Source of the DNA: Candidatus Eubacterium faecigallinarum
Lineage (GTDB): Bacteria > Bacillota > Clostridia > Oscillospirales > Acutalibacteraceae
Assembly: GCA_019115455.1 (NCBI GenBank)
Contig: DXDN01000008.1
Location: forward strand, 1 to 64,000
DNA length: 64,000 nt
Direction: 5' to 3'
The first letter of the stretch is position 1. Each line of letters starts with the position of its first letter. The notes beneath the pieces were generated by a model. The model was given only the letters and a program-made list of their open reading frames with translations, was not told the DNA's origin and made no database searches. A program made the translations under genes and the position numbers. Positions 3,136 through 64,000 of this stretch are shown here, piece by piece.

Positions 3136-3951
3136 ATGAAAAAGAAGAATAAAGTTATTATCGGTATATCTGTAATGGTTATTTTTATTATTGTCATAAT
3201 TGTTGGAATAAGTGTAAATAATCATCAAAAAGCAGTGAAAGAATCTGAATCCATAAGCTTAAGTGTTGAAACATCTAAAATGGATTTAATATCAGCTTAT
3301 CAAAAACAATATCAAAATATTATTTCTGCTGAATATAAGACTGAAGAAGAATATGATTCTGCAATAAAATCACTAGTGTCTCTTAAATCAGAAATTGAAA
3401 AATCGGATGTAAAGGATGATGAAATAATTATTACTCTTTTAACAGATATTGATAATTCTATTAATGAATATGATGATAAGATTAACTCTTTAGCAACTAG
3501 TGAAGAACTAATAGAGCAAACTACAATTACATCGGAAAAGTCAACTGAACATAGCAATGATACTACTAAATCAAATAGCTCTAATAATACATCTAAAACA
3601 GGATCAAACAATACTGCAAGTAAAAAACAAACAACGACAAAGAAGCAAACAACAACTAAGAAAGAAACTACAACAAAAAAGAATTATAAACCCAATCCTG
3701 CATATGGTTATGCTACAACGTCAGCACCCAATTATGAAGATTATGCATCAGATGGATGGAATCAAGGTAGGATTATTTATACATGGAATGCATCCACTTA
3801 TATGTGGGATTTTAGATGTCGTTATGTTAACGGAGTTTCAGATGAATATAATTGGAGAGTATACGATACATCAATTTTTCCTATGCCATCTAGAGATGGA
3901 AAATATGATGGAGAAGAAGTTTCTCAAACTATTTGGGTTTGGCTTGGATAA
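3136..3951 (+). CDS. Membrane-anchored extracellular protein with Thr/Lys repeat linker, unknown function
   Basis: A 271-residue protein I do not recognise. Residues 6-28 form one hydrophobic helix after a KKKNK start, giving an N-in anchor. Residues 30-125 are acidic and probably helical. Residues 126-185 are a Ser/Thr/Asn linker ending in three TTTKK units (KKQTTTKKQTTTKKETTTKK). The last 85 residues form a compact aromatic-rich domain (GYATTSAPNYEDYASDGW, WNASTYMWDF, TIWVWLG), so an exposed C-terminal domain on a stalk is likely. AAGGAGAG precedes ATG 3136. It is divergent from the XRE regulator and probably under its control. Base composition is much more AT-rich than the core genome, suggesting transfer. 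Confidence 0.75.
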   Translation: MKKKNKVIIGISVMVIFIIVIIVGISVNNHQKAVKESESISLSVETSKMDLISAYQKQYQNIISAEYKTEEEYDSAIKSLVSLKSEIEKSDVKDDEIIITLLTDIDNSINEYDDKINSLATSEELIEQTTITSEKSTEHSNDTTKSNSSNNTSKTGSNNTASKKQTTTKKQTTTKKETTTKKNYKPNPAYGYATTSAPNYEDYASDGWNQGRIIYTWNASTYMWDFRCRYVNGVSDEYNWRVYDTSIFPMPSRDGKYDGEEVSQTIWVWLG

Positions 3952-3974
3952 ATAAAATGATTTTGTATTCAATC

Positions 3975-4014
3975 AAACAGCAGTTAGAAATAAATCTCTA
4001 ACTGCTGTTTCTTT
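3975..4014 (+). terminator. Terminator after the surface protein gene
   Basis: AAACAGCAGTTAGA (3975-3988) pairs perfectly with TCTAACTGCTGTTT (3997-4010), followed by CTTT. Confidence 0.85.
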
Positions 4015-4197
4015 ATGGCGTAAACATTTTTGCTCTTAGAATTCTGATTATGCCAGATAAAAACAATTTTAATTATGATTAAAACAAGTTATGGAAAATT
4101 AAAACAAAAATAAAATTTGTAGTAGCGATAGCCTAAAGTTAAGAGTTGTATTTAGTATAAACCTATAATCAAAAATCATAAGTAATTTGCTTTTTTG

Positions 4198-61264: not shown

Positions 61265-61567
61265 TTACTTTACCCCCTCCATAGTTATTGCGCCTACGTG
61301 GCACGCTTTTACGCAAATGCCGCAGCCTTTGCAGTGATTGTAGTCAAATTCTCCTCTTTTGCCGTCAACTACGGGAATACAACTGTCCGGGCAAACAGGA
61401 ACGCACATAAGACAATGGATGCACTTTTCCTCGTCAATCTGCGGCTTGATTGATGACCACTCGCCGGTGTTAAAGGATTCTGAGGTCTTTTCGCCGTAAA
61501 TCTGCATTCCGAGTGTAAGGTCCTGCCACGAACAATCAAGATGAAGTTTATTAATATCTGATTTCAT
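61265..61567 (-). CDS. porD: 2-oxoacid:ferredoxin oxidoreductase delta subunit (2x[4Fe-4S])
   Basis: A 100-residue ferredoxin-like subunit with two cluster motifs, CIHCLMCVPVCP and CKGCGICVKAC. It passes electrons out to ferredoxin. ATG 61567 has GGAGG 7 bases upstream and is preferred over the TTG at 61573 that overlaps porC. Confidence 0.92.
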   Translation of the reverse strand: MKSDINKLHLDCSWQDLTLGMQIYGEKTSESFNTGEWSSIKPQIDEEKCIHCLMCVPVCPDSCIPVVDGKRGEFDYNHCKGCGICVKACHVGAITMEGVK

Positions 61568-61569
61568 TT

Positions 61570-62151
61570 TCAAGCCTCCTGCTGCACTTCTTCATAAGCC
61601 ATTTTAAGGGCGTTCATATTACCCTCAATTACCTCCGGCTTGGAAGAAAATTTATGATTAAAAGAATTTTGCATCTCGTTAAAGAAAGTTTCCTTATCCA
61701 TAACGCCCGACACCTTGACTATTGCCGCCAACATGGGCGTATTGGGGAAATATTTTCCAAGGCATGCCTTAGATATCCTTCTGGCGTCAATTGTATAAAC
61801 CTTTCCCTTATAACCAGGGATTTTGCTCCTTATAAATTCAGGAGATTTATGAGTATTTACAACTATTGCCCCCGTGTCCTTAAGACCTTCGGTAACATTG
61901 ACAACGTCCAGCAGTCCGCTGTCAACCACAACAACATAATCCGGCTCGTAAATATTTGAATGAACCCTAATCTCTTTTTTGCTTATTCGGTTATAAGCGG
62001 TAATAGGCGCACCCATACGTTCCGGACCGTATTCAGGAAATCCCTGAACATAGCAGCCCGTCTTAAACGCAGCATCAGCAAGAAGCAGAGCGGCTGTCTT
62101 AGCGCCCTGTCCTCCGCGTCCGTGCCAGCGAATTTCTGTTAAATCTGACAT
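61570..62151 (-). CDS. porC: 2-oxoacid:ferredoxin oxidoreductase gamma subunit
   Basis: A 193-residue subunit. RWHGRGGQGAKTAALLLADAAFKTG is the gamma-subunit start and GFPEYGPERMGAPI is conserved. It stabilises CoA binding. GAGGG lies 7 bases before ATG 62151. It is the first gene of porCDAB and lies directly after the T-box leader. Confidence 0.93.
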   Translation of the reverse strand: MSDLTEIRWHGRGGQGAKTAALLLADAAFKTGCYVQGFPEYGPERMGAPITAYNRISKKEIRVHSNIYEPDYVVVVDSGLLDVVNVTEGLKDTGAIVVNTHKSPEFIRSKIPGYKGKVYTIDARRISKACLGKYFPNTPMLAAIVKVSGVMDKETFFNEMQNSFNHKFSSKPEVIEGNMNALKMAYEEVQQEA

Positions 62152-62182: not shown

Positions 62183-62425
62183 AAAAAAGTCTCCTTGCCA
62201 AAAGGCAAAGAGACGATATTATAACCGCGGTACCACTCTTATTCGTAAAACGCACTTTATGTACTGACATACACTATCCCGATACCGGAGGAGACCGTCT
62301 GCGCTTACTTTAGTTCGGCGCAGCCACTCAGAGAGGATATTTTGTTTAAAGCAATACCGGCTCGCATCAACCGCCGGCTCTCTGAAAAAGCTGAATAAAC
62401 AAAACCTGTTCTCATCAACGTGTTA
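62183..62425 (-). promoter_or_regulatory. T-box leader (tRNA-sensing riboswitch) of porCDAB, probable isoleucine specifier
   Basis: The minus strand carries the conserved T-box AGAGTGGTACCGCGG (62239-62225). A terminator hairpin GTCTC/GAGAC with TTGCC/GGCAA and a T6 tail (62214-62183) follows. Stem I is visible: GATGAGAA near its base, AGAGAGCCGG with TGCGAGCCGG in the distal part, TTTTGTTTA pairing exactly with TAAACAAAA, and TCTGAG after the specifier region. Aligning with the GAA-XXX-N3-YYY-GAG layout places the specifier at ATC (62338-62336), an isoleucine codon. T-boxes sense uncharged tRNA and allow readthrough. Leader confidence is high; the specifier is less certain. This fills the 62152-62486 gap. 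Confidence 0.85.
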
Positions 62426-62486
62426 ATATTATGTAGGTTATTATATTACTTTTGGTTAAAAAAGTCAATTATTTTGTTTAAATACC

Positions 62487-63248
62487 TTAGAAAACATCAT
62501 TGCTTATAAGCAGTCTTAAAATTATCACAGCGGCGCTTGCAGTAATTGCTGCCGCTTTAATTATTTTATTTCTGCGTTTAATTTTTCCCGAGGACTCTAT
62601 CTGAGCCTGTTCATTGATTATTTCCGCCAACTCGTCATATTTGCCGCTGCCGCCGTTTGATTCGCCGTCAATGTCGTAAAGATTATAAAGAAAAGTAAGT
62701 GTTTTAAGCGTATAATTCTTTGATTTAAGATAATCGCAAAGCGCTCTGAGAAACCGCCTGTCATCCTTATATTTTTTAAAATCCTCGCTGTCTTTAATCT
62801 CATTTACCGCATACGAGATCTTCAAAATATTCTTCTGTGAAAAAGCCATATCAATCATTTTCAAAAGGCGGTCGATTCCTACGATATATTCGCTGTTCTG
62901 CTTTTTGACTTCTGCGTCAATCTTATCAAAAATTTCGTCGGGCGACGATTCAAAATCAGGTGCGGTCTTAGCTGAACTTTGATTTGCCGAATCGACAGGA
63001 ATTTCAAAGTCACTTTCGGTGGGAATATTGCTTTTAGGTTTTGTTGGCGCCTTGCTTTGCGGTGGAACGGAGGAGGTATTACCTCTCTTTCTTGCCAAAG
63101 AAACCGCTTCTTTATACGAAGAGTGAAGCTGACGAAATTTTTCCGGCTGTTCCTCGGGATGATACTCCTTTGACTTTAGAGCATAGGCGCTTTTAATTGC
63201 CCTAATATCATCCGTAGGCTCAATCCCCAAAAGATTCCAGTCAATCAT
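62487..63248 (-). CDS. Membrane-tethered J-domain protein with HPE motif
   Basis: A 253-residue protein. Residues 1-60 are a J-domain (WNLLGIEPTDDIRAIKSAYALKSKEYHP, then FRQLHSSYKEAV), but the invariant HPD tripeptide reads HPE. A Ser/Pro/Lys linker (65-110), a helical middle, and one C-terminal helix (AAAITASAAVIILRLLI) follow, giving a tail anchor. ATG 63248 has GAGGAGGAAG upstream; it overlaps the HSP70 stop by 8 bases. It is probably a dedicated partner of that chaperone. HPE may weaken ATPase stimulation. Confidence 0.8.
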   Translation of the reverse strand: MIDWNLLGIEPTDDIRAIKSAYALKSKEYHPEEQPEKFRQLHSSYKEAVSLARKRGNTSSVPPQSKAPTKPKSNIPTESDFEIPVDSANQSSAKTAPDFESSPDEIFDKIDAEVKKQNSEYIVGIDRLLKMIDMAFSQKNILKISYAVNEIKDSEDFKKYKDDRRFLRALCDYLKSKNYTLKTLTFLYNLYDIDGESNGGSGKYDELAEIINEQAQIESSGKIKRRNKIIKAAAITASAAVIILRLLISNDVF

Positions 63249-64000
63249 AATCTTCCTCCTCAATTCCGTAAAACGGGTCGTTATCCGTATAATCTATAAT
63301 ATCAAGAAACTTTGAAAAATTCACAGAGGCTTCTCTGATTTTTCTTAAATTCTGTGACTCCACAACTGAATTAAAATATTGCAGTCTGCTTCGTATCAGC
63401 GCTCTTGTATCCGCTTTTGACTCCTCAAAAAGCCGTTGAGCTCTGGCGTTCAGATATTTTACCTCATCGTTATTTCTGGGGTGAATTTTCAGTTTTTCCA
63501 GCTCTGCAAGCTTTTTTCTGATTTCTTCATCTGACAGAGTATTATTGCTGATAATCGTTTTGCTCTTGGTTTTGTTCGTACCTATACGAGTAACGTCCAC
63601 CTGCAAGATGCCGTTTATATCATATGTAAGCCTGACAGTTACTCCCTCCCTGCCTGCCGGTGCAGGCGGAACGCTTACGCTGATTTCGCCGAGTTTAAGA
63701 TTGCTGTCAAAATAATATTTTTCACCCTGTGCGATACTTATGGTAATCTTTTTCTGTTTATCTACAGAGGTGCAAAAATCGTGCTCGACGCTTGCCGGAA
63801 GAGTTGTGTTGCGTTCAATAAGCGGGAAAAACAACGGTCTGTACGGATCTTCATCGTTATAATTATCAATTCCGAGAGTGAACGGACAAATATCCGTTAA
63901 AACCACGTCCTTGATATCGGCGTTTCTGCTTTTTACTCCCGTTACCACTCCTACGCCCAAAGCGACGGCTGTATCGGGTGAAACAGAGCATTTTATCTCA
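63241..64000 (-). CDS. HSP70/DnaK-family chaperone, C-terminal part (gene runs off the window)
   Basis: About 253 codons are visible. The first residues (SPDTAVALGVGVV) match the end of the ATPase domain (PDEAVAxGAA). A substrate-binding domain follows: DVVLTDICPFTLGI, then IERNTTLPAS, KLGEISVSVPPAPAGREGVTVRL and GILQVDVT. The C-terminal lid is short and ends in DPFYGIEEEDYD. It differs from housekeeping DnaK in loop lengths and tail. The gene continues past 64000, so no start is given. It pairs with the J-domain protein. Confidence 0.85.
   Translation of the reverse strand, partial: EIKCSVSPDTAVALGVGVVTGVKSRNADIKDVVLTDICPFTLGIDNYNDEDPYRPLFFPLIERNTTLPASVEHDFCTSVDKQKKITISIAQGEKYYFDSNLKLGEISVSVPPAPAGREGVTVRLTYDINGILQVDVTRIGTNKTKSKTIISNNTLSDEEIRKKLAELEKLKIHPRNNDEVKYLNARAQRLFEESKADTRALIRSRLQYFNSVVESQNLRKIREASVNFSKFLDIIDYTDNDPFYGIEEEDYD

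Follow-up and report, generated by a model that had tools for sequence, protein, structure and literature searches.

An isoleucine-type T-box leader on a 2-oxoacid:ferredoxin oxidoreductase operon and a possible reductive route from 2-methylbutyryl-CoA to isoleucine

Anaerobes commonly carry operons annotated as pyruvate:ferredoxin oxidoreductase, yet the annotation tells neither the substrate of the enzyme nor the direction in which it runs. In the stretch of DNA analysed here (64 kb, hereafter the window) such an operon, porCDAB, stands behind a regulator that names the end product. Our study asks which reaction this enzyme serves. A switch responding to isoleucine shortage on a Por enzyme suggests that the enzyme helps isoleucine synthesis, and we lean, with modest confidence, towards the reading in which a T-box attenuator senses tRNA-Ile and porCDAB provides a reductive route from 2-methylbutyryl-CoA to isoleucine.

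The leader and its specifier

The covariance model check set beforehand accepts the leader on the minus strand: RF00230 matches 62427-62206 over model positions 1-219, with 120.1 bits against a gathering threshold of 93 (E 4.9e-26). The initial annotation had described a T-box, stem I and terminator at 62183-62425 ahead of porCDAB, and the model match, the terminator arms and the operon are all found, with those coordinates correct to within a few bases (Table 1). The only other matches at gathering level in the window are three tRNAs, namely tRNA-Pro and two tRNA-Leu. The leader shares with RF00230 T-boxes a score over gathering, stem I, a specifier, the UGGN bulge, the antiterminator and the terminator, but differs from described T-boxes in its target, a 2-oxoacid:ferredoxin oxidoreductase, and in its degenerate specifier-loop letters, where the AGUA/GAA of the Rfam consensus is not kept and the window has AGGU and AAA. 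Given that the RF00230 score is reached, we regard these letters as a common pattern and not as a condition of membership.

Table 1. Features of the leader and operon in the window.
Feature	Positions	Strand	Evidence
Promoter-like pair: -35 TTGACT 62468-62463, 17-base spacer, -10 TATAAT 62445-62440	62440..62468	-	putative, chosen by eye
T-box leader (RF00230), stem I to antiterminator	62206..62427	-	120.1 bits and consensus fold
Specifier AUC (isoleucine)	62336..62338	-	48/48 readable leaders
T-box bulge TGGTACCGCGG = UGGUACCGCGG	62225..62235	-	model match and fold
Intrinsic terminator, exclusive with the antiterminator, then six U (arms 62214-62204 and 62199-62189; six T at 62188-62183)	62183..62214	-	
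porC, gamma subunit, 193 aa	61570..62151	-	TIGR02175 224 bits, over cut-off; PF01558
porD, delta subunit, 4Fe-4S ferredoxin type, 102 aa (ORF list)	61265..61573	-	TIGR02179 88.5 bits, over cut-off
porA, alpha subunit, 393 aa	60079..61260	-	best NF040682 490.4 bits, cut-off 550; PF01855, PF17147
porB, beta subunit, thiamine diphosphate binding, 313 aa	59126..60067	-	best NF008819 337.9 bits, cut-off 405; PF02775

The promoter-like pair, like the terminator, lies outside the RF00230 model. Directly upstream of it is a weakly DnaJ-like gene (62487-63263, minus strand; 22.7 bits, below the Pfam cut-off), and an Hsp70-like gene (63241-63999, minus strand) also lies on that side.

The leader alignment comprises 49 sequences: the window, L009 and 47 loci from named genomes, of which one (L059) is truncated, so that 48 are readable. 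A consensus fold of these 48 leaders has 60 pairs with 95.1% of cells standard; 41 of the 60 pairs are changed on both sides, a count that is flattered because pairs and counts come from one alignment without a shuffled control. The terminator has 11 pairs, with 99.4% of cells standard. In the folds the UGGN bulge sits in an antiterminator that is mutually exclusive with the terminator. The letters UGGUACC are invariant in all 49 leaders, hence the bulge would pair with a tRNA having discriminator A; its UGGU would pair with a tRNA ending in ACCA.

The specifier was read by the rule given with TBDB, under which it is the triplet that stops one base short of the end of the specifier bulge (PMC7778990). 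The AUC proposed by the initial annotation is invariant in the readable leaders while its flanks vary: the preceding base is T in 47 and A in one, and the following base is C in 39 and A in nine. Two shifted readings were rejected against this invariant triplet, UAU for tyrosine, whose first base would be U in 47 leaders and A in one, and UCC for serine, which would be UCC in 39 and UCA in nine. According to the TBDB description, AUC makes up 99% of isoleucine specifiers (PMC7778990).

The same rule applied to the six other T-boxes of the window's own genome (G000) gives GUA before valS, CUC before leuA, AAC before aspS, UUC before pheS, ACC before thrS and UGG before trpB, the genes being recognised from protein starts. 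Four of the six were read before the gene was seen; GUA and CUC were settled afterwards and so not blind, the provisional readings having been a doubtful GUA and, for the leuA leader, a doubtful AGC or GCU. All six precede genes for synthesis or tRNA charging. None of the seven T-boxes found in this genome precedes ileS, so that por carries the only isoleucine T-box found there. Among eight relatives, which gave 53 T-box matches, 30 loci were examined and 24 had a motif readable by script; their T-boxes precede valS, pheS, aspS, leuA, an asnS-like gene, a second leuA-like gene and por, and AUC is read only before por (G108 and G114), with L157, L164 and L171 of the 24 unread. We consider the leader itself real and its specificity firm.

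Two further T-boxes of this survey deserve mention. An AAC (Asn) T-box precedes aspS at L003 (G000:C16:100224-100442) and also at L152 and L158, a pairing for which AspRS would need to charge tRNA-Asn as well. At L160 (G080:C8:9488-9717) a T-box with, by eye, perhaps a CUC specifier precedes a second LeuA/homocitrate-synthase-like gene.

Distribution and history of the pairing

The PorA scan of named genomes, taken as the best 80 of 489 confirmed loci, divides by identity into a clade of 49 (L038-L086, 83-95%) and 31 more distant loci (L087-L117, 67-75%), 24 of which are titled Lachnospiraceae or one of its genera. The 49 clade loci are probably members of the window's genus, since 14 of them group with the window, L009, L137 and L138 in one clade of the PorA tree (100/99), and 24 of 28 further loci from genus members match one of the 49 without any difference across 500 bases. 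Within this best-80 set, 47 of the 49 clade loci have the T-box motif ahead of the operon. One exception, L083, starts too near porA to show the motif. The other, L064 (about 3650-4150), is the only clade locus with enough upstream sequence yet without the motif, and all that seems to survive of the leader before porC is the 3' end of the terminator.

The 28 further genus loci all carry the motif, with AUC readable in 27 and one truncated, and a T-box above gathering stands before por in L009, L137 (G108, 110.7 bits) and L138 (G114, 112.5 bits); L140 (G100) and L141 (G097) give no T-box match, their contigs ending before the leader. The motif is found in none of the 31 distant loci, four of which (L097, L103, L104 and L107) are too short upstream, and the full RF00230 model finds no T-box in 13 of the 31. 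Across the class, a PorA relative at E 1e-100 or better occurs in 71 of 391 genomes including the window's own, the other 70 lying outside the window's order, and none of the 29 class loci compared shows the motif in the 1.5 kb before porA, bar two matches inside porD. At the level of the family a close PorC (at least 82%) is present in two of 80 genomes, each a member of the window's genus, with the next best at 41% and 39%; in the genus 55 of 80 genomes have a full-length PorC and one more a fragment. In a tree of the clostridial homologues compared, the genus clade falls within the distant named-genome loci, L087 being its sister. The simplest history would be that por was acquired from the side of these distant loci and that the T-box was recruited in an ancestor of the genus.

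The enzyme and its relatives

As the initial annotation described, porC, porD, porA and porB follow one another on the minus strand, and porC starts at 62151, behind AGAGGGATTAAG and some 30 bases after the run of U. The nearest NCBIfam profiles of PorA and PorB are pyruvate synthase equivalogs, both scoring under their cut-offs. The NCBIfam 2-ketoisovalerate models are not reached either (NF006232, 333.7 against 646 bits; NF008818, 288.4 against 405); we take these two to be models of archaeal type. Residues that we assume from PFOR structures to be catalytic are kept, PorA T31, E59 and R109 in 53 of 53 rows and PorB N141 in 48 of 48. The enzyme thus has the four subunits, the TPP-binding and ferredoxin domains and the catalytic residues of a VOR (EC 1.2.7.7), a set of features that does not discriminate because it is common to pyruvate enzymes too.

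By sequence, the nearest solved structure is the heteromeric pyruvate:ferredoxin oxidoreductase 9bt4, presumably from Methanosarcina, with which porCDAB shares subunits, domains and catalytic residues; it differs in that the window proteins fall under the pyruvate synthase equivalog cut-offs and in PorA 118-119, which is N-C in 53 of 53 clade rows and W-N in 9bt4. Placed by PFOR structures, these two residues may, on our assumption, touch the substrate pocket. The N-C pair is also common to relatives without a T-box: in the 31 distant named-genome loci position 118 is N in 31 and position 119 is C in 30, and in the class set (n=29) the first is H in 22 and N in seven and the second N in 24 and C in five. 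PorB 57 is F in the clade and in nearly all of the 31 distant homologues, with mixed residues in the class set. Together, PorA 118-119 N-C and PorB 57 F are a possible candidate mark of specificity.

A rival reading is that of an ordinary PFOR or pyruvate synthase, whose T-box was either caught by chance or ties carbon supply to amino-acid demand. The nearest profiles (Table 1) and the nearest structure speak for it, as does the VOR of Clostridium sporogenes, which uses pyruvate as well (PMC13290082). The scores of PorA and PorB nevertheless lie below the cut-offs of 550 and 405, and a T-box captured by chance would hardly have been kept, its specifier unchanged, at 47 of 49 loci. Moreover, a full single-chain PFOR (1748 bits, G000:C16:80565-84047) is encoded elsewhere in the window's genome, which makes porCDAB a second enzyme and agrees with the earlier proposal of a role apart from the main pyruvate enzyme. 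A search with PorC as query had given no PFOR match in this genome; the notion of por as the sole pyruvate enzyme was dropped when the family model found one. Single-chain PFOR is present in 35 of 41 genus genomes, this one included, and in 21 of the 23 of those with full-length PorA. We therefore regard an ordinary pyruvate enzyme as improbable.

Enzymes that have been assayed in clostridia show what four-gene 2-oxoacid:ferredoxin oxidoreductases of this kind can do. The C. sporogenes VOR (CLOSPO_00146-00149) turns over pyruvate strongly together with three branched-chain 2-oxoacids, CLOBAR_01193-01196 of I. bartlettii favours branched-chain substrates, and two VOR-like enzymes of B. hydrogenotrophica prefer aromatic ones (PMC13290082); a genetic role of the C. 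sporogenes porA locus is given in a review (PMC11271093). Likened by description, these four-gene VORs of clostridia are likely kin of porCDAB. Their branched-chain activity is catabolic, and the passages of PMC13290082 describing them mention no T-box. A catabolic branched-chain 2-oxoacid oxidoreductase, induced in isoleucine starvation for some other reason such as nitrogen shortage, would be in keeping with the service of these enzymes in amino-acid oxidation in C. sporogenes and gut acetogens (PMC13290082) and with the lack of a T-box before the distant homologues. Breaking down branched-chain 2-oxoacids under isoleucine shortage would, however, deepen the shortage, and in this genome all six remaining T-boxes stand before genes for synthesis or tRNA charging, which leaves a catabolic role very improbable. 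A switch that opens on isoleucine starvation argues for synthesis and not breakdown; set against the oxidative direction of the assayed enzymes, it points to the reverse direction for porCDAB.

The operon contains no acyl-CoA-forming gene, and the neighbourhoods of the 80 named-genome loci show no constant partner apart from single cases. At L087 (7182-8702) and L106 (2084-3622) the operon adjoins a CoA transferase (PF01144) or an AMP-binding enzyme (PF00501); these neighbours, in two of the 31 distant loci, are possible acyl-CoA sources.

Isoleucine genes and the proposed route

The window's genome carries ilvA, ilvB, ilvC, ilvD and ilvE, so the por enzyme would form a parallel route. Replacement of ilvA or ilvC by por in this genome was rejected, both genes being present (ilvA C27:74055-75149, ilvC C27:75738-76679) within 2.7 kb. 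Of the genus genomes, 28 are at least 90% complete; 18 of these have por, 16 of them together with ilvC, and six of the ten without por have ilvC. With relatedness not corrected for, this association has a Fisher p of 0.15. In the 18 high-quality por-positive genomes ilvD is over cut-off in 17, the remaining one (G100) having it in two pieces, and ilvA is present in 15. Four of the high-quality genomes (G082, G095, G109 and G115), which may be one related group, lack ilvC and ilvD and also por, with ilvB and ilvE over cut-off.

This pattern bears on a second synthetic reading, in which the enzyme is a 2-oxobutyrate synthase that carboxylates propionyl-CoA to 2-oxobutyrate for conversion to isoleucine by IlvBCDE. 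The 2-oxobutyrate step is specific to isoleucine and so matches a switch reading only tRNA-Ile, por accompanies the later ilv genes, and no match over cut-off to the citramalate synthase model TIGR00977, which covers one type of that enzyme, was found in 41 genomes. The absence of por from all four genomes without ilvC and ilvD, which would gain most from salvage, likewise fits propionyl-CoA carboxylation and tells against simple salvage. On the other side, ilvA in the window's genome and in most por-positive genomes means that 2-oxobutyrate is already sourced, and G108 and G114 combine por and its T-box with a lack of ilvC and of a full ilvA match, although an assembly gap is possible. The argument from these two genomes is weakened by their keeping ilvB and ilvD along with ilvE, and because ilvA and ilvC are close together in the window's genome one gap might explain both losses; in other genomes the two genes lie further apart or on separate contigs. 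The distribution of ilv and por does not separate 2-methylbutyryl-CoA from propionyl-CoA as substrate, and we rate propionyl-CoA carboxylation as unlikely, though a more serious contender than the pyruvate or catabolic roles. That porCDAB serves isoleucine formation by one of the two synthetic readings we hold to be quite probable; 2-methylbutyryl-CoA as substrate makes up the better part of this, unproven as it is.

Our analysis suggests the following model for the 2-methylbutyryl-CoA route. When isoleucine is short, uncharged tRNA-Ile would pair at two places, through its anticodon with AUC (62338-62336) and through its NCCA end with UGGU at 62235, allowing the antiterminator to form and RNA polymerase to read through into porCDAB; with tRNA-Ile charged, the terminator at 62214-62183 would form instead. 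The four-subunit 2-oxoacid:ferredoxin oxidoreductase would most likely run reductively, converting 2-methylbutyryl-CoA to 3-methyl-2-oxopentanoate and perhaps carboxylating other branched acyl-CoAs too, and IlvE would aminate the product to isoleucine alongside the de novo pathway. In this model the leader, the specifier, the operon and the second PFOR are features of the sequence, and from them we infer switching in the cell, the substrate and the direction of the reaction. The reassignment of this 'Por' operon to branched-chain synthesis, as the initial annotation had it, thus stands as far as the isoleucine T-box, the AUC and the control of porCDAB are concerned, and is tempered by the presence of ilvA-E and by profiles nearest to pyruvate synthase.

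The proposed reaction equals one known from the rumen: Robinson and Allison are said to have described in 1969 how anaerobes of the rumen carboxylate 2-methylbutyrate reductively to make isoleucine. In Methanobrevibacter ruminantium this carboxylation is held probable (PMC2812497), and 2-methylbutyrate is described as a source of isoleucine in rumen methanogens (PMC10658910). On the reverse conversion, of branched acids into branched-chain amino acids, one account states that it 'was not proven yet' but is possible via a ferredoxin oxidoreductase (PMC7709123). The T-box targets described are mainly tRNA ligases and genes of amino-acid synthesis and transport (PMC2494555, PMC3766115); the words 'oxidoreductase' and 'ferredoxin' do not occur in the main texts of these two papers or of PMC7778990, and a literature search covering part of the matches gave no report of a T-box on a 2-oxoacid:ferredoxin oxidoreductase.

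It is an evenly balanced prospect that bacteria of one gut and rumen genus took up a ferredoxin-dependent branched-chain 2-oxoacid enzyme and put it under an isoleucine T-box as a dedicated route to isoleucine from branched-chain acids of the environment. If the proposed route is true, a redox enzyme would be added to the kinds of T-box target that we found described, and a conversion that studies of the rumen have described with neither an enzyme nor a regulator, that of branched-chain volatile acids into isoleucine by gut and rumen bacteria, would gain a concrete example of each, together with a way to pick out such operons elsewhere.
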